64,000 nt of DNA from Methylacidimicrobium sp. AP8 (lineage in GTDB: Bacteria > Verrucomicrobiota > Verrucomicrobiia > Methylacidiphilales > Methylacidiphilaceae): contig NZ_LR797830.1 in the NCBI RefSeq assembly GCF_903064525.1, forward strand, positions 1,550,001 through 1,614,000, written 5' to 3'. Positions within the stretch are counted from its first letter, which is position 1. Each line of letters opens with the position of its first letter. Of this stretch, positions 3,266 to 24,273 are shown piece by piece. A program made the translations under genes and the position numbers. Under the pieces are notes generated by a model. It saw only the letters and a program-made list of their open reading frames with translations, did not search any database and was not told the DNA's origin.

Positions 3266-4687
3266 ATGGTCTTCCGCCCGGCTCCCGCTTCCGGCGCTCC
3301 GCTCCTGGCCGCCCTTCTTCTGGCTCTCCTCCCGGCCGCGTCCGGCCGCGCCGCCGACCCCTTCTTCCCCTACGGGGTGGCCTCCGGCGATCCCGAGACC
3401 CATTCGGTCATCCTCTGGACCCGGATCGAGAGCGGCAAGCCGAGCGTCTCCCTCCGCTATGAAGTGGCCACCGACCCCGACTTCCGCCGGGTCGTCGCCT
3501 CGGGAGAGGTGGAGACCGGCCCGGCGCGCGACTACACCGCCAAGGCGGACGTCACCGGGCTCGAGCCGGGCACCCGGTATTTCTACCGGTGGAGCGGCGA
3601 AGGGCACCGGAGCCCCACAGGCCGGACCGAGACACTTCCGGAACGGGCCGACCGCTTCCGGATCGCCGTGGCGAGCTGCCAGCACTACGGAGCCGGCTTC
3701 TACACCGCCTACCGCTCGATCGCCGCGGACCAGCCCGACCTTCTGGTCCATCTAGGCGACTGGATCTATGAGTTCCCCACCTACGGAGCGGCCGCGGCCC
3801 GCCCGGACCCGGTCGGCGTCGCCGAAGACCTCTCTTCCTACCGGGCCAAGCACCGCCTCTACCGGAGCGATCCCGATTTCCAGCGGGCCCTCCAGTCGGT
3901 GCCCGTGGCCGCCATCTGGGATGATCACGAGGTCCAGAACGACTATTCGGGCAAGGCCGCCCGCTTTTACGCGCCCCGGCGGCTCCAGGCCGCCTACCAA
4001 GCCTACTTCGAGTACGTGCCTATCCGGCCGCAGGAGGAGTTCCGGATCTACCGCAGCTTCCGGATCGGCGACCTGGCAGAGCTCTTTCTTACCGACGGCC
4101 GGCAGTACCGGGACGAGGACGTTTGGCACCCGGCCTTCTTCCCCCCGCCCGACGCCGCCCGGCAAGCGCTCGCCCCCGGCCGGTCGATGCTCGGCGCCGC
4201 CCAGCGCGACTGGCTCTTGACCGGCCTTTCCCGGAGCCCTGCCCTCTGGAAGCTGATCGGCAGCGGCGACCTCATGATGGACCTGCGGCTCCACGGGCTT
4301 CCGGTCAGCGTCGACTCCTGGGACGGGTTTGCCTGGGAAAAGGAGCAGATCCTGGCGGCGATTGCCGCGAAGCAGATCCGCAACGTACTTGTGCTGAGCG
4401 GCGACACCCACGTCTTTTCCTACGGGGAGCTCCGCTACCAGGGAAAGCCCGTCGCACTCGAGGTGGGGACTGCGGGGATCTCTTCGCCGGCCGGCAAGCT
4501 CGAACGGGCCGCGGAGGTCGAGGCGGCCAATCCCCACATCCTCTTCTCCGACCGCGACCACCGGGGCTACGTCCTCCTCGACATCGGCCGCGAGGCGATC
4601 GAGGTCTCCTTCTACGGCTTCTCGACGGTGTTGGAACCCGACGGCCGACGCATCCTGCTGCGGCGATTCCGGATCCCGCGCTCCTGA
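3266..4687 (+). CDS. phoD: PhoD-type alkaline phosphatase / phosphodiesterase
   Basis: A secreted calcium/iron-type phosphatase that would release phosphate from organic esters. The first 30 residues form a signal peptide ending in SGRAADPFFPYGVASGDP. A fibronectin-like N-terminal domain (residues 30-125) precedes the metallophosphatase core with HLGDWIYE, AAIWDDHEVQNDYSG and LSGDTHVFSYGEL, the usual metal-binding positions of PhoD (PF09423). The length of 473 aa is typical. I see no twin-arginine motif, unlike many PhoD proteins, so Sec export is more likely. No Pho-box-like repeat is visible directly upstream. The gene stands alone between minus-strand genes. Confidence 0.85.
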   Translation: MVFRPAPASGAPLLAALLLALLPAASGRAADPFFPYGVASGDPETHSVILWTRIESGKPSVSLRYEVATDPDFRRVVASGEVETGPARDYTAKADVTGLEPGTRYFYRWSGEGHRSPTGRTETLPERADRFRIAVASCQHYGAGFYTAYRSIAADQPDLLVHLGDWIYEFPTYGAAAARPDPVGVAEDLSSYRAKHRLYRSDPDFQRALQSVPVAAIWDDHEVQNDYSGKAARFYAPRRLQAAYQAYFEYVPIRPQEEFRIYRSFRIGDLAELFLTDGRQYRDEDVWHPAFFPPPDAARQALAPGRSMLGAAQRDWLLTGLSRSPALWKLIGSGDLMMDLRLHGLPVSVDSWDGFAWEKEQILAAIAAKQIRNVLVLSGDTHVFSYGELRYQGKPVALEVGTAGISSPAGKLERAAEVEAANPHILFSDRDHRGYVLLDIGREAIEVSFYGFSTVLEPDGRRILLRRFRIPRS

Positions 4688-4712
4688 GGCGTGCGGTAGC
4701 CGCCTTTTTTTC
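4688..4712 (+). terminator. Possible terminator after phoD
   Basis: A short stem (GCGG-TAG-CCGC, 4693-4703) is followed by seven T residues. The stem is only about 4-5 bp, so this is tentative. Confidence 0.35.
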
Positions 4713-4835
4713 CCGGAAAAAGACGGCTTTCGCCTTTCCCTTCCCCCGCCCGGCGCCGGATCCGCTGCCGCGAAAGCCGAATCGGCGCCCTTCCTCCACG
4801 ATCTACGGGAGCGCCGGCGCGGCACGGGCTCCTTC

Positions 4836-5711
4836 TCAGCGGATCTGCCGTTTCTGGTGCACCAGCTTCCAGATCATCGGGGTCAAGATCAGCTCCATCG
4901 CCAGCGGCATCTTGCCTCCGGGACAGACGATCGTGTTCGGCCGGGACATGAACGAGCCGTGCAGCATGGAAAGGAGGTAGGGGAAATCGATCTCCTTCGG
5001 GTTCCGGAAGCGGATCACGAGCATGCTCTCGTCCGGGGTGGGGATATCCCGCGCGATAAAGGGATTCGAGGTATCCACGGTCGGCACCCGCTGGAAATTG
5101 ACGTGGGTACGGGAAAACTGCGGGCAGATGTAATGGACGTAATCAGGCATCCGCCGGAGGATCGTGTGGACGATCGCTTCCTGGGAGTAGCCCCGCTCCT
5201 TCTTGTCCCGGTGGATCTTCTGGATCCACTCGAGGTTGATGATCGGCACCACCCCGATCAGCAGGTCGGCGTATCGCGCCACGTTGGCTTTGTCGGTGAC
5301 GACAGCGCCGTGCAGCCCCTCGTAAAGCAGGAGGTCGGTCCCTTCGGGAATATCCTCCCATGGCGTGAACATTCCCGGCTGAAGGTGGTAAGGGGCGGCT
5401 TCCTCCTCGTTGTGGAGGTACTTCCGGACCTTGCCGGTCCCGGTCTCCCCATAGGTGCGAAAGAGCTCTTCGAGCTCTTCGAAGAGGTTCGCCTCCGGTC
5501 CGAAGTGGCTGAAATGGCGGTTGCCCTTCTTCTCCGCCTCTTCCATCCGGGCCTTCATCTCGGCCCGGTCGTACCGGTGAAAGGCGTCTCCCTCGACGAT
5601 CCAGGCGTTGATCCCCTCCCGGCGGAAGATGTGCTGGAAGGCGGTCTTGACGGTCGTGGTGCCGGCTCCGGACGAGCCGGTGACGGCGACAACAGGATGC
5701 TTGGCGGACAT
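4836..5711 (-). CDS. prkB: Phosphoribulokinase, type II (proteobacterial form)
   Basis: Phosphorylates ribulose 5-phosphate to ribulose 1,5-bisphosphate, the committed step of the Calvin cycle. The P-loop VTGSSGAGTTTVKTAF is at residues 10-25, followed by the substrate region EGDAFHRYDRAEMKARM and the strand LLLYEGLHGAVV. The 291-aa length fits the bacterial octameric class rather than the plant/cyanobacterial class. AGAGGA precedes the ATG by nine bases. It lies 16 bp downstream of the fructose bisphosphatase gene on the same strand, so both carbon-fixation genes are probably co-transcribed. RuBisCO is not in the window. Confidence 0.95.
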   Translation of the reverse strand: MSAKHPVVAVTGSSGAGTTTVKTAFQHIFRREGINAWIVEGDAFHRYDRAEMKARMEEAEKKGNRHFSHFGPEANLFEELEELFRTYGETGTGKVRKYLHNEEEAAPYHLQPGMFTPWEDIPEGTDLLLYEGLHGAVVTDKANVARYADLLIGVVPIINLEWIQKIHRDKKERGYSQEAIVHTILRRMPDYVHYICPQFSRTHVNFQRVPTVDTSNPFIARDIPTPDESMLVIRFRNPKEIDFPYLLSMLHGSFMSRPNTIVCPGGKMPLAMELILTPMIWKLVHQKRQIR

Positions 5712-14475: not shown

Positions 14476-16186
14476 CCCCGATATCTCACCAATAGCGGGC
14501 ATAGCGGAGGGCAAAAAAGCCGACAAAAGGGCATAGGAAAGGCCGTCTTTCCCTGGTATAAGTGCGTTAAGAAGACGTTACTACAACCAGAAAAAAGAAA
14601 CGGCCTTCCATGACAGAGTGTAGCCAAGAGACTTTTGCGTTTACAGATCATTTTTCGCGACGGGTGGAAGCGGGATTTACCGCGGGTCGGATCTCCAGCG
14701 ATGGGGGCGCAATTCTGTTGCGGGAAGCGGATCGGAAGATCGGTTTGTTAAGACGGTTAGAGGGTTGCTTCGTGGATCGACGCCATCCGAAACGCATTGT
14801 GCATCGGGTACGGGAGATGCTTGCCCAGCGCATTTTCGGGATTGCGATGGGCTACGAAGACCTCGACGACCATGAGCAGTTGCGGACCGATCCGCTGGTT
14901 GCTCTCCTGAGCGGGAAAAGCGATCTGGAAGAGGATCTGGCGGGCAAGAGCACCCTCAACCGGCTGGAGCTGGTGGGTCGAAGCGAGCGCTACCACAAGA
15001 TCGACTACTCGGCCGAAGCGATCGACCGTCTTCTGGTCGATCTCTACCTCCAATCGCATCCCCAGCCCCCTGAGGAGGTGGTGCTCGATCTGGATGCGAC
15101 CGACATCCCCCTTTACGGACATCAGCCGGAGCGCTTCTTCCATGGTTACTAGGACTCCTACTGCTATTTGCCGCTCTACATCTTTGCTGGCGATCAACTC
15201 CTTGGCGTCCGGCTTCGGCCATCGAACCAGGATGCGTCGGCGGGCTCCCTTACGGAGGTGAGCCGGATCGTGGAACAACTCCGTACCCGTTGGCCCGGAG
15301 TCCGGATCGTGCTCCGGGCCGATTCGGGCTTCTGCCGGGAAGAGATCATGGCTTGGTGCGAAGCCAATCAAGTCGACTACCTCTTCGGCTTGGCCCGCAA
15401 CGAGCGCTTGTGCCGGACCATTCAGGGGTCGATGGAGCAAGCCCGTCGTCTGCACGAGTCGAGTGGCAAGCCGGCCCGCTTCTTTACCGAGTTTGCCTAC
15501 CGCACCTTGAGCAGCTGGTCGAGGGAGCGCCGGGTGGTCGCCAAAGCCGAGTACCTGGAAAGAGGGGAGAATCCGCGCTTTGTCGTGACCTCTCTCTCCA
15601 CCGAGGAGTGGCCCGCCCAAAACCTTTACGAGAAGCTCTACTGTGCTCGTGGCGACATGGAGAATCGGATTAAGGAACAACTCTACCTCTTTGCCGACCG
15701 GCTCTCGACCGCGCAAATGGCCAGCAACCAACTTCGCCTCTACTTCTCGGCTCTCGCTTACACCCTGGTCGAAGCGCTGCGACGGCTCGGTCTGCGAGGA
15801 ACGGACTGGGCCGAGGCCCAGGTCGACACCCTCCGGCTCAAGCTCTTTAAGATCGGCACGCTGGTCCGAGTCAGCGTCCGCCGCGTCTTCCTCTCGATGA
15901 GTAGCGCCTATCCTTGGAAGAGCCTCTTTACCCACGTCTTCCGAGTGCTGCGTTGTTGAGCAGGTATCAAAACCCCACCTTCTTCTCCTTCCGCAAAGCC
16001 TACGATCGGGCGGAGCCTTGCTCCACAACCGGCTTTTTGCGCTTTGCAGCGCTCGCGTTAAGGCAAATCGAATGAAAATCTTGCTCGATCCTGCCTCACG
16101 AAGAGCTCTGCGCGGCCGGAACTGCTCGCAAGCGACTCGATCGGCACCTCTCTCGCCCGAAAGCTCGTACTGGTGAGAAATGGGGG
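14476..16186 (+). mobile_element. IS1380-family element, copy 1
   Basis: 1711 bp, with ends CCCCGATATCTCACCAATA (left) and, in reverse complement, CCCCCATTTCTCACCAGTA (right). It is flanked by TTAG duplications at 14472-14475 and 16187-16190. The site of insertion is inside IS3 element A, just beyond its orfB stop. About 230 bp after the transposase are non-coding. Confidence 0.92.
14610..15959 (+). pseudogene. IS1380 transposase with internal amber codon
   Basis: The 449-codon frame encodes a DDE transposase: LDLDATDIPLYGHQPERF, IVLRADSGFCREEIMAWCE and DMENRIKEQLYLFADRLST carry the catalytic acids. Codon 181 is TAG (15150-15152) where the other copy has TAC (Tyr). Only this single base separates it from an open frame at that point, so the copy died recently or depends on readthrough. 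An internal start could give a C-terminal product. Confidence 0.9.
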
Positions 16187-17026
16187 TTAGTTGTTTAGGT
16201 TAGCGAGATTATTTTCGAAGTCCAGCGGGGATTGGTAATGGAGGCCGCTATGAAGGCGGCGGCGGTTGTAGAAGCATTCGATGTAATCGAAGATCATGAT
16301 CTTGGCCTCTTGTTTTGTTTTCGGGAGGAAGCAGCCGAAGCACTCGGTTTTGAGCGTGGCCCAGAAGGATTCCATCATGGCATTGTCATAACACTGTCCC
16401 TTGCGGCTCATGGAGGCGACGGCACCGCAGGAGTGCAGTAGCGCGTTGAACTCTCCGCTGGCATACTGGACGCCGCGATCGGAATGGTGCAAGAGCCCTG
16501 GGTCGGGGCGTCGGCTTTTTCAGGCCTTCTTCCAGGCTCTTGTCACCAAAGAGGTAGAGAGCGAGTCCTCGGCATGCCAGCCGACAGACCGGCGGGAACC
16601 ACCATCGAGGATGGCGGAAAGAGAAAGCCAGCCCTCGGCGGTGAGGATGGAGGTGATGTCACCGATCCAGATCTGGTTGGGGCGATCCGGCGCGGGCATC
16701 CGGGCCAGCCAGTTGTCGGCGACCGGAAGGCGATGGGCGCTATCGGTGGTTTGGGGACGGAAGCGGCGTTTTTGTTTCGCGCGCAGACCGAGCTCCCGCA
16801 TTAAGCGGGCCACCCGATTTTTGCCGCAAGGCTCTCCGGCCTTACGCAGTGCCCAGGTGATGCGCGGGCTGCCATAGCTTCTCCGGCTTTCCAGGAAAAC
16901 TGGATGGATGGCCGCAAGCAGTTGCTTGTCCCGTTGTAGACGGCTTCCCCGGTCCTTGTGCCGGTGAGCATGGAAGCCGCTCCGGGAAACCTCCAGAGCT
17001 TCGGCCAATTCGGTGAGGCAATAATC
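16187..17026 (-). pseudogene. IS3 element A orfB (rve integrase), disrupted
   Basis: The integrase catalytic frame of IS3 element A. It reads YCLTELAEALEVSRSGFHAH, PNQIWIGDITSILTAEGWLS (first Asp), LLHHSDRGVQYASGEF (second Asp) and YDNAMMESFWATLKTECF (Glu). The original start lies at 18464 (MQKMTK), beyond the ISL3 insertion, which now supplies a new start (MKQRGG at 17044). An in-frame TGA sits at 16520-16522 between the first and second catalytic blocks. Both lesions make it inactive. Confidence 0.88.
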
Positions 17027-18438
17027 GCCTCCTCGCTGTTTCATGTGGCCAAGGCGGGAATATCCAACCTCAGCTTTCCGGCTTTGAGGAAAGCGGCGAT
17101 CCGTAAGCACCGAAAGCTTCGGAAGCCTCTGGCCATCCTTTTGGCAAGCTGGATGAGTCCGTTGATCGCCTCGATGAGACCATTGGTCACCCGGCTCTGG
17201 AGGAAAGCAAGGACGCCGTCCAGATGGTCTTTGATCGTCTTGGAAAGCTTTCGGAAGGGAGCAAGCCGGCTGCGGTCGGCCCACTGGAACCACCAGCGGA
17301 GCTCTTGGGGATCCTCTTGGGCGAGGATCTCTTGCAGAGCCTCCCGCAACCCAATGGCTCTTCCCAGTCGGGGGTAGGCTGCACAAAGGGAAGCACGCAG
17401 ACTCTTCTGCTCCCTGCTTCGCGTCCATTCGTTGCCTCGCAGCGCCCAGAGGCTTCCCTTCGGCAGCAGCCCCTGACGCACGAACTCCTTGCGTACTTGG
17501 TCGACCGCCTCTCCCGCCATCTGCATGAGGTGGAAGCGGTCAAAGACGATCTGCGCCTTGGGGAAGTGCTCCTTGGCTCCGCAAATGTAGGAAGGGCTCA
17601 TGTCCATGCAGATTAGCTCGATCTGCTCGGAACTCGCTCCATGCTCGCGCATCTCCTTGGCAAATGCCTCCAAGGCCTCCTTCCCTTTGCCTTCCGCCAG
17701 GAAGAGGAGCTTCCGGCTCTCCGCGTCGGTAACGGCGGTCACGTAGCGGTGACCCCGCTTGCTGCTGGTCTCGTCGACCAAGATCCGCTTCACCCCGCTC
17801 CAATCCTCCTTCCGATAGGCCTTTTCCACGTAATGCTCCAAGATTCTCCACAGCCGGGTGTCCTGCTCCTTGAGCATCTTGGCCACCTGGGAAACCGGCA
17901 TCTCCTGGGAAAGCATCAGGATGACCGCCTCCATCATCAAGGTAAACCCGCTCCCCGGTCTGGCCCAGGGAACTTCCGCCAACCGCACTCCGTGCTCCGG
18001 ACAGTCCACCCGAGGAACCCGCGCCACCAGCTCGGTCTTGTACTGCCAGAAGTTCATGTGCCTCCACCGCTTCTCCACCGTGTCGTGCGCAGGAGAAGGA
18101 CGCCCGCATTCCGGACAGGGGAACCGATGGCCCTCGCGAAAATCGAGCCAGATCTTCAAGGTGTGATCCACCGCAGACAGTTCGCTTCGAGTCACCTTCC
18201 ATTCCGGACCCAACTGTAAGGCCATCCCAAAAAGCTTGTTCGCATCCATGCCCGAAGAATCGGAAAACGAGGCGAGCTTGGCAATCCGCCGTCAAGGAGG
18301 ATCGACGAAGTCGAAGTGTCCTTGACGGCAATTCGCCCGGACTCAAAATCCGTCGAAGACGGATGGCAAGAACACCGTTTCTTGCCATCCCTCAATGGCA
18401 AATCTGCCTCCTCCGCCCATTCCATTCAGCGAAGAGCC
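17027..18438 (-). mobile_element. ISL3-family element, copy 1
   Basis: 1412 bp with ends GGCTCTTCGCTGAATGGA and GCCTCCTCGCTGTTTCAT. It is flanked by the 8-bp duplication GATTATTG (complement at 17019-17026 and 18439-18446), as expected of ISL3. It sits in the start region of IS3 element A orfB. Confidence 0.95.
17041..18249 (-). CDS. ISL3-family transposase
   Basis: A 402-aa intact transposase. It has an N-terminal zinc-finger-like part (FPCPECGRPSPAHD and RVDCPEHGV), then the DDE domain with RILVDETSSKRGHRYVTAV, ICMDMSPSYICGA, FDRFHLMQMAGEAVD and the C-terminal GLIEAINGLIQLAKRM. It is nearly identical to the copy at 25109-26317, indicating recent duplication. Stop TGA lies 14 bp from the element end. 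Confidence 0.95.
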   Translation of the reverse strand: MDANKLFGMALQLGPEWKVTRSELSAVDHTLKIWLDFREGHRFPCPECGRPSPAHDTVEKRWRHMNFWQYKTELVARVPRVDCPEHGVRLAEVPWARPGSGFTLMMEAVILMLSQEMPVSQVAKMLKEQDTRLWRILEHYVEKAYRKEDWSGVKRILVDETSSKRGHRYVTAVTDAESRKLLFLAEGKGKEALEAFAKEMREHGASSEQIELICMDMSPSYICGAKEHFPKAQIVFDRFHLMQMAGEAVDQVRKEFVRQGLLPKGSLWALRGNEWTRSREQKSLRASLCAAYPRLGRAIGLREALQEILAQEDPQELRWWFQWADRSRLAPFRKLSKTIKDHLDGVLAFLQSRVTNGLIEAINGLIQLAKRMARGFRSFRCLRIAAFLKAGKLRLDIPALAT

Positions 18439-18446
18439 CAATAATC

Positions 18447-18786
18447 TTTGGTCATTTTTTGCATCACCGCATATCGCTGGCAGGCATCTCGGCCGACCCA
18501 ATGCTTTTTGTAAAATGTCGCGCTGAGGGCGCAGATAGTCGTTTTCCTGGCGCAACCTCCGCAGCTCGCGCTGCTCGGGCGATTCGGCCGCCAACGTCTT
18601 GGGATCGCTGAAAGCCCGACCGCCTTGGTCTTCCTTGACCCACAGATTCAGCGACCAATGGGAAACGCCCAGATCGCGAGCTACCTCGTGAATCGAACGC
18701 CCCCCTCGCACCAGGGCCACCGCATTCTCTTTACACTCGCGGTCATAACGCCGCGCGAACTTGCTGCTGCTCTTTCCGTTGTTCAT
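18447..18786 (-). pseudogene. IS3 element A orfA, truncated by ISL3
   Basis: The helix-turn-helix protein of the IS3 element: SSKFARRYDRECKENAVALV, GRSIHEVARDLGVSHWSLNL and the leucine-zipper-like ELRRLRQENDYLRPQRDILQ. Its 3' end is separated from orfB by the ISL3 insertion, and the frame now reads into ISL3 sequence. In intact relatives orfA and orfB are joined by a programmed frameshift. Confidence 0.85.
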
Positions 18787-18843
18787 TTGGAGTTTTCCTT
18801 TCTAACCCCCAAAGCCCCTGTCCGCAAAATCGAAGAAACTTCA

Positions 18844-19010
18844 ATGCGATACGGGGGCATCTCCTTGCCCAACTTGCTCCTGAGGGTCGCCGCCACATCG
18901 ATTTCGCAGAGGATGCCAAATCCCTCCTTGCGCAGAGCCTCTACCACCTTGGGGACGGTTTCCTCGAACGAGGTGGCCACTTCCTTCCCAAATCCATGCG
19001 AGGTCTTCAT
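18844..19010 (-). pseudogene. DUF302 gene fragment, 5' part
   Basis: This encodes the first 55 or so residues of a DUF302 protein (SHGFGKEVATSFEETVPKVV, GFGILCEIDVAATLRSKLG, ending in MPPYRI) and is cut by the end of IS3 element A. It is a clear paralogue of the intact gene at 2669-3061. GGGAGC precedes the start. The remaining half is not found in the window. Confidence 0.88.
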
Positions 19011-19422
19011 CTCACGCTCCCGTTTTCGGCTCGCGCCGCATCCTGCTTCCGAAGGGAAGCGTCCGGCGACCCAGCCTACTTGTCATGACAGTATCCTCTT
19101 CCCTTTCGGGAAAGAGCGCAAGGGGATTCGTTGGAGCTGCTGCGGCGCCGGTCCCGTGCCTATTCCGCGCTCGAAAGTACTCCATTCTTCCGGCGATTCA
19201 CTTCCCATCCGCAAAGAATCAACGGTGAAAACCGCGCGGTTATGCGAGCGACTCCGCAGTTGCCGATTCGTCTTCCCTTTCCCGGCTCCACGGGCCGCTC
19301 GACTCGTCTCTTCGCCGCAAAGCCGCTCGCGGAAGCTTTCCCTAGAGAGGCCTGGCATTGATTCATTAGAAGACTACCTACGGCCAATTAGCCTACTTCA
19401 TCGTCCTCCGCTCGTCCGCGCG
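19011..19422. other. Intergenic, no gene seen
   Basis: No convincing coding frame. A palindrome TGTCATGACA lies at about 19081-19090, near the promoter of the DUF302 fragment. Confidence 0.5.
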
Positions 19423-19550
19423 ATGCCACACAACCGTCACAAGATCGCCATACAACCGTAACATTTCCGTAACCATCGCGTCACTTCTCCGTCCCGTTCC
19501 AGTCACTTTCATGACATAGTTCTGTCATATAGTCGTAACATATTTGTAAC
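19423..19550 (+). promoter_or_regulatory. Pho-box-like array of twelve heptamers at 11-bp spacing
   Basis: Starting at 19423 and then every 11 bp, the heptamers are ATGCCAC, CCGTCAC, TCGCCAT, CCGTAAC, CCGTAAC, GCGTCAC, CCGTCCC, CAGTCAC, ATGACAT, CTGTCAT, TCGTAAC and TTGTAAC. The four-base spacers are unrelated and mostly AT-rich. Nine of twelve have GT at positions 3-4. Eleven-bp-spaced CTGTCAT-type heptamers are the known recognition unit of PhoB. The array ends about 115 bp before the chosen start of the TonB-dependent receptor. Binding by PhoB is an inference. Confidence 0.75.
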
Positions 19551-19665
19551 ACTATTTTCCTTGCTCACAATTCTTAACGTACCTATTGTGCAGGTCATTT
19601 CTTGCGCCTAGTTGACATAGACATGGATGGAACTTGCGCAGACAGTAGGAGGACCAGATTCAGAT

Positions 19666-22371
19666 ATGAGTGCCGAAGAGTTGTTGGATACGATTCATGC
19701 TTGGAGATGGCCCGCTGCCCGATCCTTCTGCCTGCTCTTCCTCGCTTTTCTGCTGAGCATGCAAGAGACGCGAGCCAACGACCCCGGAATCCCGAAAGTG
19801 AACGACAGCCTCTCGGGACCGCAGGAAAGCACAGGCGAACCCATCGCTCTGGGCGGGGGTCCGGACTCCTGGGATGCCGCTCCGACTGCCTCCACCGGGC
19901 CCTCCTCCGTCTACGGCGCCAGACCTCCCGGATCGGATCTAGCCGATATTCAGCCTCTTCTCGCCGCCAACTCCCCCAGCCCGAGCGCCTCCTCCGGAGC
20001 AGAGAGCGAACCGAGCGCGCCGGACAGCAACGGCGGCGCCATCCAGATGCCCACCACCGAAGTTACGGCGGGCCCCGACAACCCTCTTCTCGACGCGCCC
20101 ACCGACCTCGTGCCGGGAGCATCGCAAGCGCCGACCCAGGAACAGATCTTCCGGTCCGGGGCAACCACCCGCGTGATCGACAAGAACATGGCGGCCAGCG
20201 CCGGTCCGGTGGCCGGCGCGGCCCAGGTGCTCCAGTTTTCACCGGGCGTGAACGTCAACGGCTACGGAAACACCGGGGCCACCAAGTACACCGTCTCGAT
20301 CAATGGAATCGGGAACGGCTGGAGCGGCTTCGGGGGGTATACGGGCGGGGCCTCGATCATGATGACGCTCGACGGGGTGCCGATGAACAATGTTTCGACC
20401 GGCCTCTGGCAGTCGCCGTCGGTCCCGATCATGCAGATGATCTCGAGCACCACCGTCACCTACGGCCCGGCAACGGCGGCCGGCCGCTGGTATGACAATG
20501 TCGGCGGCATGGTGGAGTTCACCCCGATCCAGCCGACCGAGCATTCGGGCGCCGATCTCAACATCATCTACGGAAGCTTCAACCAGAAGTTGCTGACCGC
20601 CGACTACCGGACCGGAAACATCCACGGCTGGTCGACGGTGATCTCCGGTGGAGTCGGCGACGGAAACAACTTCCGGATGTCCCCGGACGGATTCCGAAGC
20701 CCGAGCTACCAGTACGCGGCCTACGTAAAGACGATCAAGAACTTCAACCATGGCGACATCAGCTTCGGTGCCTGGTATGCGGATGCGGGCGGCTACCGGC
20801 CCACCATTATTCCCGTCGGCGCCAACCCCTACGTGACGGTCAACGGCCAGAGCGCGAGCGGCATGCCGATTGCCGGAACCCCCTACAGCCAGGCGACCAG
20901 CGGCTACTATAGCAATCTCAACTACGATACTTGGCGCAAGTTCGACAGCCAATCGACCCAAATCGCCTATGCCAAGCAGAACATCTACCTCGACGACGAC
21001 AAGAAGACGACCCTTCACAACATGCTTTTCTACAACGGTTCCAACCGTATCCACAGCCGTTATTACAACTTCTTCGAAAATGCCGCCAACGCGTATGAGT
21101 ACAACAATCCGTCCGAATCGGACTTCGGGGACCAGATCGGATTGACCAAGATCCTCCCCTACAACACGGTCGACGTCGGAGGATATTACATCTCCTCGAC
21201 CTACAACAGCCGCAATGCCTTCTACAATCCGAACTACTTCCTTCCCGGAACGACGATTCCCGGCGGGGAGCTGACCCCGAACAACCTCTATCGGAACGAT
21301 TACTGGGACCAGACCGATATCGCGGTCTATCTCCAGGATACGATCGAGCCGATCAAGGCGCTTCAGATCGTTCCAAGCATCCGCTACGACGTCTTCACGA
21401 CTGCTTATTCGATGAACGCCCAGGAGCAGTTCCCGTTGGCGTTTCAATACAACCCCGGAAACAATCAAGGAAAGTTGCCGAACGCCACACGCCACCTCGG
21501 CGGCCTTGAGCCTTCGATTCTTCTCAACCTGGAGGTGACTCGTTGGCTTGCCCTTTACGGCAGCTACTCGGAAACTTACGAGACCGACACGGTCGGAGGC
21601 GGGGGCGGTATCTTTCAAGCCATTCCCGCCTCCTACTACGGGCTGTCGCTGGCGCAGTACGCGATTGCGGGCGCCAAGACTCATTTCGAGAAGCTGCCCG
21701 GACTCAACAATATGCTTTTCGGCGCCAACTACTTCTGGCTTCGATTCGCCGAACAGGCGATCGACATGGTCAACTTCGTCGGTAAGCCGATCACCGGGCT
21801 CGGGACCTCGATCTACCAGGGAGCGGACTTCTTCCTCGATGACAACCCGATCGGCACCTTTCACCTCTACATGAATGGTGCGGTCGAGAACGCCACCTAC
21901 AGGAGCTACGTCGTGAATTCGAGCCCCACGCAGAAAATTAACTACGATGGCCGCCATATCCCCTATGTGCCCAGCGTCATGCTCACCGGAGGCATCTATC
22001 AGATCCAGCAGATCGGCAAGGTCTCCCTGCGCCTCAGCCTCTGGTTCATCTTCAACGGGGAGCAGTACGTCTTCAACAACGAGATCGGGGCGCCGAGCAA
22101 TCAGACGATGCCCCAGTATTACACCCTCAACGCCTCGATCAACGCGGCGGTCCCGATGCGCCTCTTCGAGCGGGAGAGGATGATCAACTTCAACCTGACC
22201 CTGATGAACATCACCGACCTCAACTACAACGGCTACGAATACATCACCAGCGGCGGCTACTACGGGACCGCGGGAAACGCCAACGTGCCCTCTGCCTATC
22301 AGTCGGGCTACATGCTCGGCTATCCGGGAGCACCCTTCACGCTCTACGGGAGCATCGGTGCCAGCTTTTGA
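19666..22371 (+). CDS. TonB-dependent outer-membrane receptor
   Basis: A 901-aa receptor. From the start at 19666 (AGGAGGA lies 12 bases upstream; an ATG at 19627 lacks one) there is a signal segment SFCLLFLAFLLSMQETRAND, a long Pro/Ser/Gly-rich region to about residue 110, a plug domain (QEQIFRSGATTRVID, VLQFSPGVNVNGYG, MMTLDGVPMNN, TVTYGPATAA) and a barrel with many aromatic beta strands ending in the usual terminal Phe (LYGSIGASF). The ligand is unknown. The upstream Pho-like array and the downstream phosphoesterase suggest a phosphorus-containing ligand. Its stop is seven bases before that gene, so they form an operon. Confidence 0.9.
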   Translation: MSAEELLDTIHAWRWPAARSFCLLFLAFLLSMQETRANDPGIPKVNDSLSGPQESTGEPIALGGGPDSWDAAPTASTGPSSVYGARPPGSDLADIQPLLAANSPSPSASSGAESEPSAPDSNGGAIQMPTTEVTAGPDNPLLDAPTDLVPGASQAPTQEQIFRSGATTRVIDKNMAASAGPVAGAAQVLQFSPGVNVNGYGNTGATKYTVSINGIGNGWSGFGGYTGGASIMMTLDGVPMNNVSTGLWQSPSVPIMQMISSTTVTYGPATAAGRWYDNVGGMVEFTPIQPTEHSGADLNIIYGSFNQKLLTADYRTGNIHGWSTVISGGVGDGNNFRMSPDGFRSPSYQYAAYVKTIKNFNHGDISFGAWYADAGGYRPTIIPVGANPYVTVNGQSASGMPIAGTPYSQATSGYYSNLNYDTWRKFDSQSTQIAYAKQNIYLDDDKKTTLHNMLFYNGSNRIHSRYYNFFENAANAYEYNNPSESDFGDQIGLTKILPYNTVDVGGYYISSTYNSRNAFYNPNYFLPGTTIPGGELTPNNLYRNDYWDQTDIAVYLQDTIEPIKALQIVPSIRYDVFTTAYSMNAQEQFPLAFQYNPGNNQGKLPNATRHLGGLEPSILLNLEVTRWLALYGSYSETYETDTVGGGGGIFQAIPASYYGLSLAQYAIAGAKTHFEKLPGLNNMLFGANYFWLRFAEQAIDMVNFVGKPITGLGTSIYQGADFFLDDNPIGTFHLYMNGAVENATYRSYVVNSSPTQKINYDGRHIPYVPSVMLTGGIYQIQQIGKVSLRLSLWFIFNGEQYVFNNEIGAPSNQTMPQYYTLNASINAAVPMRLFERERMINFNLTLMNITDLNYNGYEYITSGGYYGTAGNANVPSAYQSGYMLGYPGAPFTLYGSIGASF

Positions 22372-22378
22372 GCCGCCC

Positions 22379-22563
22379 ATGCCCAAGAAGCCCATGACAA
22401 CACCCAGGATCTCCCGACTCGGCAGACGGTCTCTTTCGCGCAGCCTGCGCCTCCTCTGCCTTCTCCTTCCGCTCTTCCGCGCACTGGCCGCAGGCGCCGC
22501 GCTGCTGCCTCCCACCGAGGCGCCCGTCGACCACTTCATCCTTCTCTTCCAGGAAAACCATAG
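22379..22563 (+). pseudogene. Phospholipase C/phosphoesterase gene, 5' fragment
   Basis: After a signal peptide (RLLCLLLPLFRALAAGA) the frame reads APVDHFILLFQENHS and stops at the edge of an IS1380. This is the N-terminal active-site block of the phosphoesterase family PF04185 (bacterial phospholipase C, AcpA-type acid phosphatases), whose usual form is ENxSFDxxxG. The continuation FDNLLGEFPG is found after the IS, so the gene was intact before insertion. It starts seven bases after the receptor gene and would be a secreted enzyme. Confidence 0.85.
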
Positions 22564-24273
22564 CCCCCATTTCTCACCAGTACGAGCTTTCGCGCGAGAG
22601 AGGTGCCGGTTGAGTCGCTTGCGAGCAGTTCCGGCCGCGCAGAGCTCTTCATGAGGCAGGATCGAGCAAGATTTTCGTTCGATTTGCCTTAACGCAAGCG
22701 CTGCAAAGCGCAAAAAGCCGGTTGTGGAGCAAGGCTCCGCCCGATCGTAGGCTTTGCGGAAGGAGAAGAGGTGGGGTTTTGATACCTGCTCAACAACGCA
22801 GCACTCGGAAGACGTGAGTAAAGAGGCTCTTCCAAGGATAGGCGCTACTCATCGAGAGGAAGACGCGGCGGACGCTGACTCGGACCAGCGTGCCGATCTT
22901 AAAGAGCTTGAGCCGTAGGGTGTCGACCTGGGCCTCGGCCCAGTCCGTTCCTCGCAGACCGAGCCGTCGCAGCGCTTCGACCAGGGTGTAAGCGAGAGCC
23001 GAGAAGTAGAGGCGAAGTTGGTTGCTGGCCATTTGCGCGGTCGAGAGCTGGTCGGCAAAGAGGTGGAGTTGTTCCTTGATCCGATTCTCCATGTCGCCAC
23101 GAGCACAGTAGAGCTTCTCGTAAAGGTTTTGGGCGGGCCACTCCTCGGTGGAGAGAGAGGTCACGACAAAGCGCGGATTCTCCCCTCTTTCCAGGTACTC
23201 GGCTTTGGCGACCACCCGGCGCTCCCTCGACCAGCTGCTCAAGGTGCGGTAGGCAAACTCGGTAAAGAAGCGGGCCGGCTTGCCACTCGACTCGTGCAGA
23301 CGACGGGCTTGCTCCATCGACCCCTGAATGGTCCGGCACAAGCGCTCGTTGCGCGCCAAGCCGAAGAGGTAGTCGACTTGATGGGCTTCGCACCAAGCCA
23401 TGATCTCTTCCCGGCAGAAGCCCGAATCGGCCCGGAGCACGATCCGGACTCCGGGCCAACGGGTACGGAGTTGTTCCACGATCCGGCTCACCTCCGTAAG
23501 GGAGCCCGCCGACGCATCCTGGTTCGATGGCCGAAGCCGGACGCCAAGGAGTTGATCGCCAGCAAAGATGTAGAGCGGCAAATAGCAGTAGGAGTCGTAG
23601 TAACCATGGAAGAAGCGCTCCGGCTGATGTCCGTAAAGGGGGATGTCGGTCGCATCCAGATCGAGCACCACCTCCTCAGGGGGCTGGGGATGCGATTGGA
23701 GGTAGAGATCGACCAGAAGACGGTCGATCGCTTCGGCCGAGTAGTCGATCTTGTGGTAGCGCTCGCTTCGACCCACCAGCTCCAGCCGGTTGAGCGTGCT
23801 CTTGCCGGCCAGATCCTCTTCCAGATCGCTTTTCCCGCTCAGGAGAGCAACCAACGGATCGGTCCGCAACTGCTCATGGTCGTTGAGGTCTTCGTAGCCC
23901 ATCGCAATCCCGAAGATGCGCTAGGCAAGCATCTCCCGTACCCGATGCACAATGCGTTTCGGATGGCGTCGATCCACGAAGCAACCCTCTAACCGTCGTA
24001 ACAAACCGATCTTCCGATCCGCTTCCCGCAACAGAATTGCGCCCCCATCGCTGGAGATCCGACCCGCGGTAAATCCCGCTTCCACCCGTCGCGAAAAATG
24101 CGCTGTAAACGCAAAAGTCTCTTGGCTACACTCTGTCATGGAAGGCCGTTTCTTTTTTCTGGTTGTAGTAATGTCTTGCTAACGCACTTATACCAGGGAA
24201 AGACGGCCTTTCCTATGCCCTTTTGCCGGCTTTTTTGCCTTCCGCTATGCCCGCTATTGGTGAGATATCGGGG
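22564..24273 (-). mobile_element. IS1380-family element, copy 2
   Basis: 1710 bp in opposite orientation to copy 1, flanked by ATAG duplications (22560-22563 and 24274-24277). Ends are the same as in copy 1. It interrupts the phosphoesterase gene between the Ser and Phe codons of its active-site motif. Confidence 0.93.
22790..24139 (-). pseudogene. IS1380 transposase, second copy, with a different amber codon
   Basis: The same 449-codon DDE transposase as at 14610-15959. Codon 73 is TAG (23921-23923) where copy 1 has CAG (Gln); the Tyr codon mutated in copy 1 is intact here. The remaining 370 codons are open from an internal ATG at 23902 and contain all three catalytic acids, so a truncated product missing the N-terminal part is conceivable. 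Confidence 0.9.

Follow-up and report, generated by a model that had tools for sequence, protein, structure and literature searches.

Organization of the locus

The window, i.e., the whole 64-kb stretch of DNA analysed here, belongs to the single-contig, 2.30-Mb genome of an acid-loving verrucomicrobial methanotroph of the genus Methylacidimicrobium. An array of short, regularly spaced units precedes a TonB-dependent receptor gene, and the features that surround it are as follows.

3266–4687, + strand: PhoD-like phosphatase gene (profile and orthologue comparison); in relative L006 the array and receptor follow it directly
19401–19422, + strand: two weak in-phase units, TCGTCCT (19401) and TCGTCCG (19412), which may extend the array upstream (not scored by the matrix)
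19423–19550, + strand: predicted PhoB operator, built of twelve 11-bp units that each join a 7-bp half-site and a 4-bp spacer (periodicity, matrix, conservation in L005, L006, L007 and L009)
19561–19589, + strand: predicted promoter, TTGCTC, 17 bp, TATTGT, with the −10 element in register with the array grid (orthologue comparison only)
19666–22371, + strand: TonB-dependent receptor gene with plug and beta-barrel domains and a signal sequence (Pfam PF00593, PF07715; start at 19666 plausible)
22379–22564, + strand: acid phosphatase gene remnant (PF04185 / TIGR03397 in relatives)
22790–23902, − strand: insertion-sequence transposase gene (open reading frame list; second copy at 14610–15959)

The initial annotation had placed an outer-membrane receptor and a secreted phosphoesterase downstream of the array. 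The receptor stands, with relatives in Methylacidimicrobium tartarophylax, strain LP2A and Methylacidiphilaceae MAGs. The phosphoesterase, which had helped to make phosphate control seem reasonable, does not: its homology stops at 22564, before the transposase gene (which we take, by eye, to be IS1380-like), so that only a truncated remnant is present here, whereas in relatives the acid phosphatase behind the receptor is intact (TIGR03397 above cut-off). The gene order in L006 is PhoD, array, receptor, acid phosphatase and a phosphoribulokinase-like gene. In the window, PhoD adjoins a kinase gene (3266–5711), and the array, receptor and broken phosphatase are found 15 kb away. Flanked by insertion-sequence genes, the array-receptor block (14610–23902) looks as if it had been relocated.

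The array consists of twelve 11-bp-phased half-sites

Three properties ascribed to the array by the initial annotation were confirmed in the sequence: the heptamer starts are spaced by exactly 11 bp between 19423 and 19544, nine of the twelve carry GT at positions 3–4, and the one at 19522 is CTGTCAT, the E. coli PhoB half-site and the single exact match among the twelve. Self-match of the array at lags of 11, 22 and 33 bp was 0.52, 0.51 and 0.46 vs. a background of about 0.27, and no other part of the 64-kb window gave a better lag-11 stretch or a better 12 × 11 information block. The mean agreement of the twelve heptamers with CTGTCAT was 4.42 out of 7 in the array phase, compared to 0.8–2.7 in the ten other phases and 1.69 ± 0.32 window-wide.

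The scoring matrix for the array test was built from non-orthologous arrays only and is independent of the window array. With this matrix the top phased array of the window starts at 19423, has 12 units and scores 71.7; the best score in 60 Markov-resampled 64-kb sequences was 18.2, and the observed local score was reached in none of 3,000 local resamples. Unit scores range from −1.0 to 13.2, which describes an operator with more than two in-phase units of unequal strength, the two promoter-proximal units being the highest and the middle ones the lowest. Tandem Repeats Finder did not detect the array at 19423–19550, because the units have only the core in common and their spacers differ. On the same grounds a simple tandem repeat was rejected.

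The array is conserved at orthologous receptors

An array occupies the same place at the orthologous receptor in all four relatives with upstream sequence examined (L005, L006, L007, L009), and the orthologous arrays comprise 11–15 scored units, the last one of L005 being weak. Units of the window and L005 pair one to one, apart from a single additional unit that is again exactly 11 bp long, and agree at 53/60 core positions (3–7) vs. 44/60 for the four spacer positions plus the first position. Among orthologous arrays, units are gained in exact 11-bp steps. The unit pooled from 17 arrays reads TTGTCACAnAA, with A/T-rich spacer positions.

Measured from the first base of the last recognised unit, a candidate −10 element begins at 30 bp in four arrays and at 40–42 bp, approximately one unit more, in the window-receptor orthologues. 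Array and promoter therefore share one helical register. A sigma-70 consensus scan gave no match at the predicted 19561–19589 promoter.

Arrays in the host genome precede receptor genes

We surveyed the host genome by pattern and model scans. With up to three mismatches allowed, a run of four phased GT(C/A)AC cores is confined to three places, each time on the coding strand, and the reversed-motif control of the same scan gave zero matches. One is the window receptor, another a second receptor followed by TPR and propeller-phosphoesterase genes, and the remaining one a third receptor-like gene with a plug match just below the cut-off. The same three receptor places were the best genome matches of a calibrated matrix model. 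Plug matches number 12 in the genome and the array stands at three of them; scanning of the other nine receptor loci revealed no array. A two-unit site was seen before a gene for a secreted protein of unknown family, at 689 kb in the genome. Across the genus, with one mismatch allowed, four-unit matches are present in six of seven genomes and absent from the controls.

According to the initial annotation, a matrix made from the heptamers should find sites ahead of pst, phoU and phoBR. This failed in the own genome, where neither matrix nor pattern scans found a site at pstSCAB, phoU or phoBR, not even one of two units, and it held for pst genes elsewhere in the class, as described below. Either the own pst genes are outside PhoB control or their box has changed beyond recognition.

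The array matrix recognizes pst loci across the class

The pst test covered 41 pstC loci, the own one and 40 drawn from 36 further genomes of class Verrucomicrobiae, with a matrix trained on receptor arrays and with the column-reversed matrix and the opposite strand as controls. Phased sites on the sense strand exceeded the column-reversed control (Wilcoxon p = 2.7e-6, 3.7e-5 and 3.4e-6 for two, three and four units, respectively) as well as the opposite strand. The 95% control level was surpassed at 23 of the 41 loci on the sense strand vs. 8 on the other strand, and in many cases the passing site immediately precedes pstS, pstC or a porin gene. The pst sites of the class have two to five units with the same 11-bp spacing and orientation, which agrees with the two to four half-sites that had been regarded as normal for PhoB operators. 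None of the Methylacidiphilum pst loci rose above the control level. The motif was also found before pstS in G012, a genome from the family's third genus, and before the pstC gene of a more distant relative. Since a matrix derived from receptor arrays marks pst loci class-wide, we identify its motif as the verrucomicrobial Pho box. The extended Pho box originally proposed for the window is thus well supported by the class-wide pst sites, by those before pstS and an MGDG-synthase-like gene in G012, and by the distant pstC.

The latter G012 site (L206, near 1507) is a clear two-unit Pho box approximately 45–70 bp before the MGDG-synthase-like gene, a gene type tied to phosphorus deficiency (PMC4796936); its position suggests membrane-lipid remodelling under phosphate limitation in the family. 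In two relatives (L062, 1501–1538; L212, near 1509) a four-unit array lies about 120–140 bp after a PQQ-domain-like gene, presumably methanol-dehydrogenase-like as judged by eye, hinting that phosphate control may be linked with lanthanide-dependent methanol oxidation. Four Methylacidiphilum loci (L192, L194, L197, L199) have in common a two- to three-unit site whose downstream gene encodes a 450-aa membrane protein of unknown family and possibly adjoins mobile-element-like genes.

A phylum-wide four-unit scan matched 17 of 388 genomes, with six control matches. It gave two pst-linked cases; in one of these (L125) the array is oriented away from the porin-pstS-pstC genes. Several matches were unrelated, i.e., a palindromic repeat family in G191 and a simple repeat in G300. 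The distant relative G191 (L082, L099, L105) has several 11-bp-phased GTTAC/TGTAAC arrays that flip orientation midway, stand before unrelated genes and resemble a dispersed repeat family. Viral contigs scanned for eight exact units yielded mostly simple tandem repeats. Contig L218 (12382–12463) is unlike most viral matches in that its eight GTAAC cores, all exact and 11 bp apart, are separated by spacers that vary.

The candidate regulator and comparison with known operators

Six OmpR-type DNA-binding domains were found in the genome. For one of these regulators the best family is PhoB, at 239.7 bits and below the curated cut-off of 296.2; the adjoining kinase has PnpS, WalK and PhoR as best families, likewise below curated cut-offs. 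The recognition helix of this regulator, RTVDTHIRRLR, is one residue off that of E. coli PhoB (1GXP), and close orthologues are present in 12 of 13 family genomes, the missing one being an 83% complete MAG. Judged by its sequence, this PhoB-like regulator is the likely binder of the array. PhoB sites contain TGTCA tracts 6 bp apart (PMC6194859), and a Pho box is composed of two 11-nt direct repeat units (PMC4415409). The half-site core found here is near CTGTCAT (TTGTCAC when pooled) and is repeated directly every 11 bp, as in a Pho box. Because clear Pho members without conserved boxes have been reported (PMC4415409), we did not take a site before the own pst, phoU or phoBR as defining.

The array shares with the E. 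coli Pho box (two 11-nt units, CTGTCAT core) the 11-bp head-to-tail units, the TGT(C)A core, the A/T-rich spacer, a place upstream of the promoter and phosphate-related genes nearby. It differs in having 12–15 units instead of a few, with TTGTCAC or TTGTAAC as consensus. In E. coli the last unit is closer to the −10 element; in the array it lies farther upstream. The pst Pho boxes of the class have the same matrix, spacing and orientation, yet only two to five units, before pstS, pstC or a porin gene, compared to 11–15 here. Complex PhoP operators of Streptomyces likewise contain more than two 11-nt units of unequal strength, but their core is GTTCACC, they belong to another phylum and the examples have four units. 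The Caulobacter receptor Cc0171, present in low-phosphate stalk extracts, is like the window receptor a TonB receptor linked with phosphate scavenging, although it was reported to be constitutive in rich and poor medium (PMC2996285). The regulator and the site are of a known kind, and it is the length of the array (11–15 vs. 2–5 units) and its TonB-receptor targets that are unusual.

Alternative explanations

In our opinion the array is very probably a long Pho box, a PhoB operator that would switch on the receptor under phosphate limitation. Our confidence is held below near-certainty by the absence of a site at the own pst, phoU and phoBR and of any above control at Methylacidiphilum pst. 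The sub-cut-off scores of regulator and kinase and the restriction of arrays to three of 12 receptor loci weigh against it as well. Another regulator of the OmpR/PhoB family, with a similar helix and responding to a metal or envelope signal, might bind instead, the likeness to a Pho box then reflecting shared ancestry of the DNA-binding domain. At least five further OmpR-type domains are available for this, two of the regulators being nearest to heavy-metal regulators and one to KdpE; moreover, the arrays of this genome all precede TonB receptors and none precedes pst, and one receptor is weakly similar to siderophore receptors. However, the matrix also picks out pst loci of the class, a property expected to be shared by PhoB alone, four other OmpR-type regulators had no site at their own loci, and phosphatase genes neighbour the array-bearing receptors, which counts in favour of PhoB. 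We therefore regard another regulator as unlikely.

Two further explanations do without a specific regulator. Helix-phased, A/T-rich spacers could bend the DNA and raise promoter activity by shape, and 11 bp is indeed near the helical repeat. Such an origin is very improbable, since the conserved part is the specific GT(C/A)AC core and not the spacers, reversed-motif controls gave zero matches, and the sites keep to one strand and reappear at pst genes. Gains and losses of 11-bp units do occur, as slippage would produce, and might point to chance or to a decayed, functionless tandem duplication. This we consider extremely improbable in view of the resampling result (0/3,000), the zero controls, the preservation of cores over spacers and the absence of a detected tandem repeat.

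Proposed mechanism and biological significance

It can be read from the DNA itself that the array is phased and conserved, shares its motif with the pst Pho box of the class and is in register with a −10 element; binding by this PhoB, activation and spreading along the array are what we infer. Under phosphate limitation, the PhoR-like kinase would phosphorylate PhoB, which would bind the 11-bp units head-to-tail, most strongly at the two promoter-proximal units, and then spread upstream across the weaker ones. The distribution of strength, with the promoter-proximal units strongest and the middle ones weakest, suggests such nucleation near the promoter. Bound PhoB would aid RNA polymerase at the weak promoter (19561–19589), turning on the receptor gene and, where relatives have kept the acid phosphatase gene intact, that gene as well.

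A more speculative, and rather doubtful, extension is that the Methylacidimicrobium PhoB left pst for TonB receptors, and that at one receptor 12–15 half-sites let it polymerise along one face of the DNA, with the array length setting the threshold or steepness of the phosphate response. The graded or high-threshold switch and the long cooperative filament of the initial annotation are likewise speculative; more sites could equally lower the threshold of the switch rather than raise it. Natural operators of 2, 4, 8, 12 and 15 units, apparently served by one regulator, would make the relation between half-site number and PhoB response testable. The analysis also provides a working Pho-box matrix for Verrucomicrobia. 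In verrucomicrobial methanotrophs, our results point to phosphate-starvation control of TonB receptors, and they suggest that in this genus the Pho regulon has been rewired away from pst.
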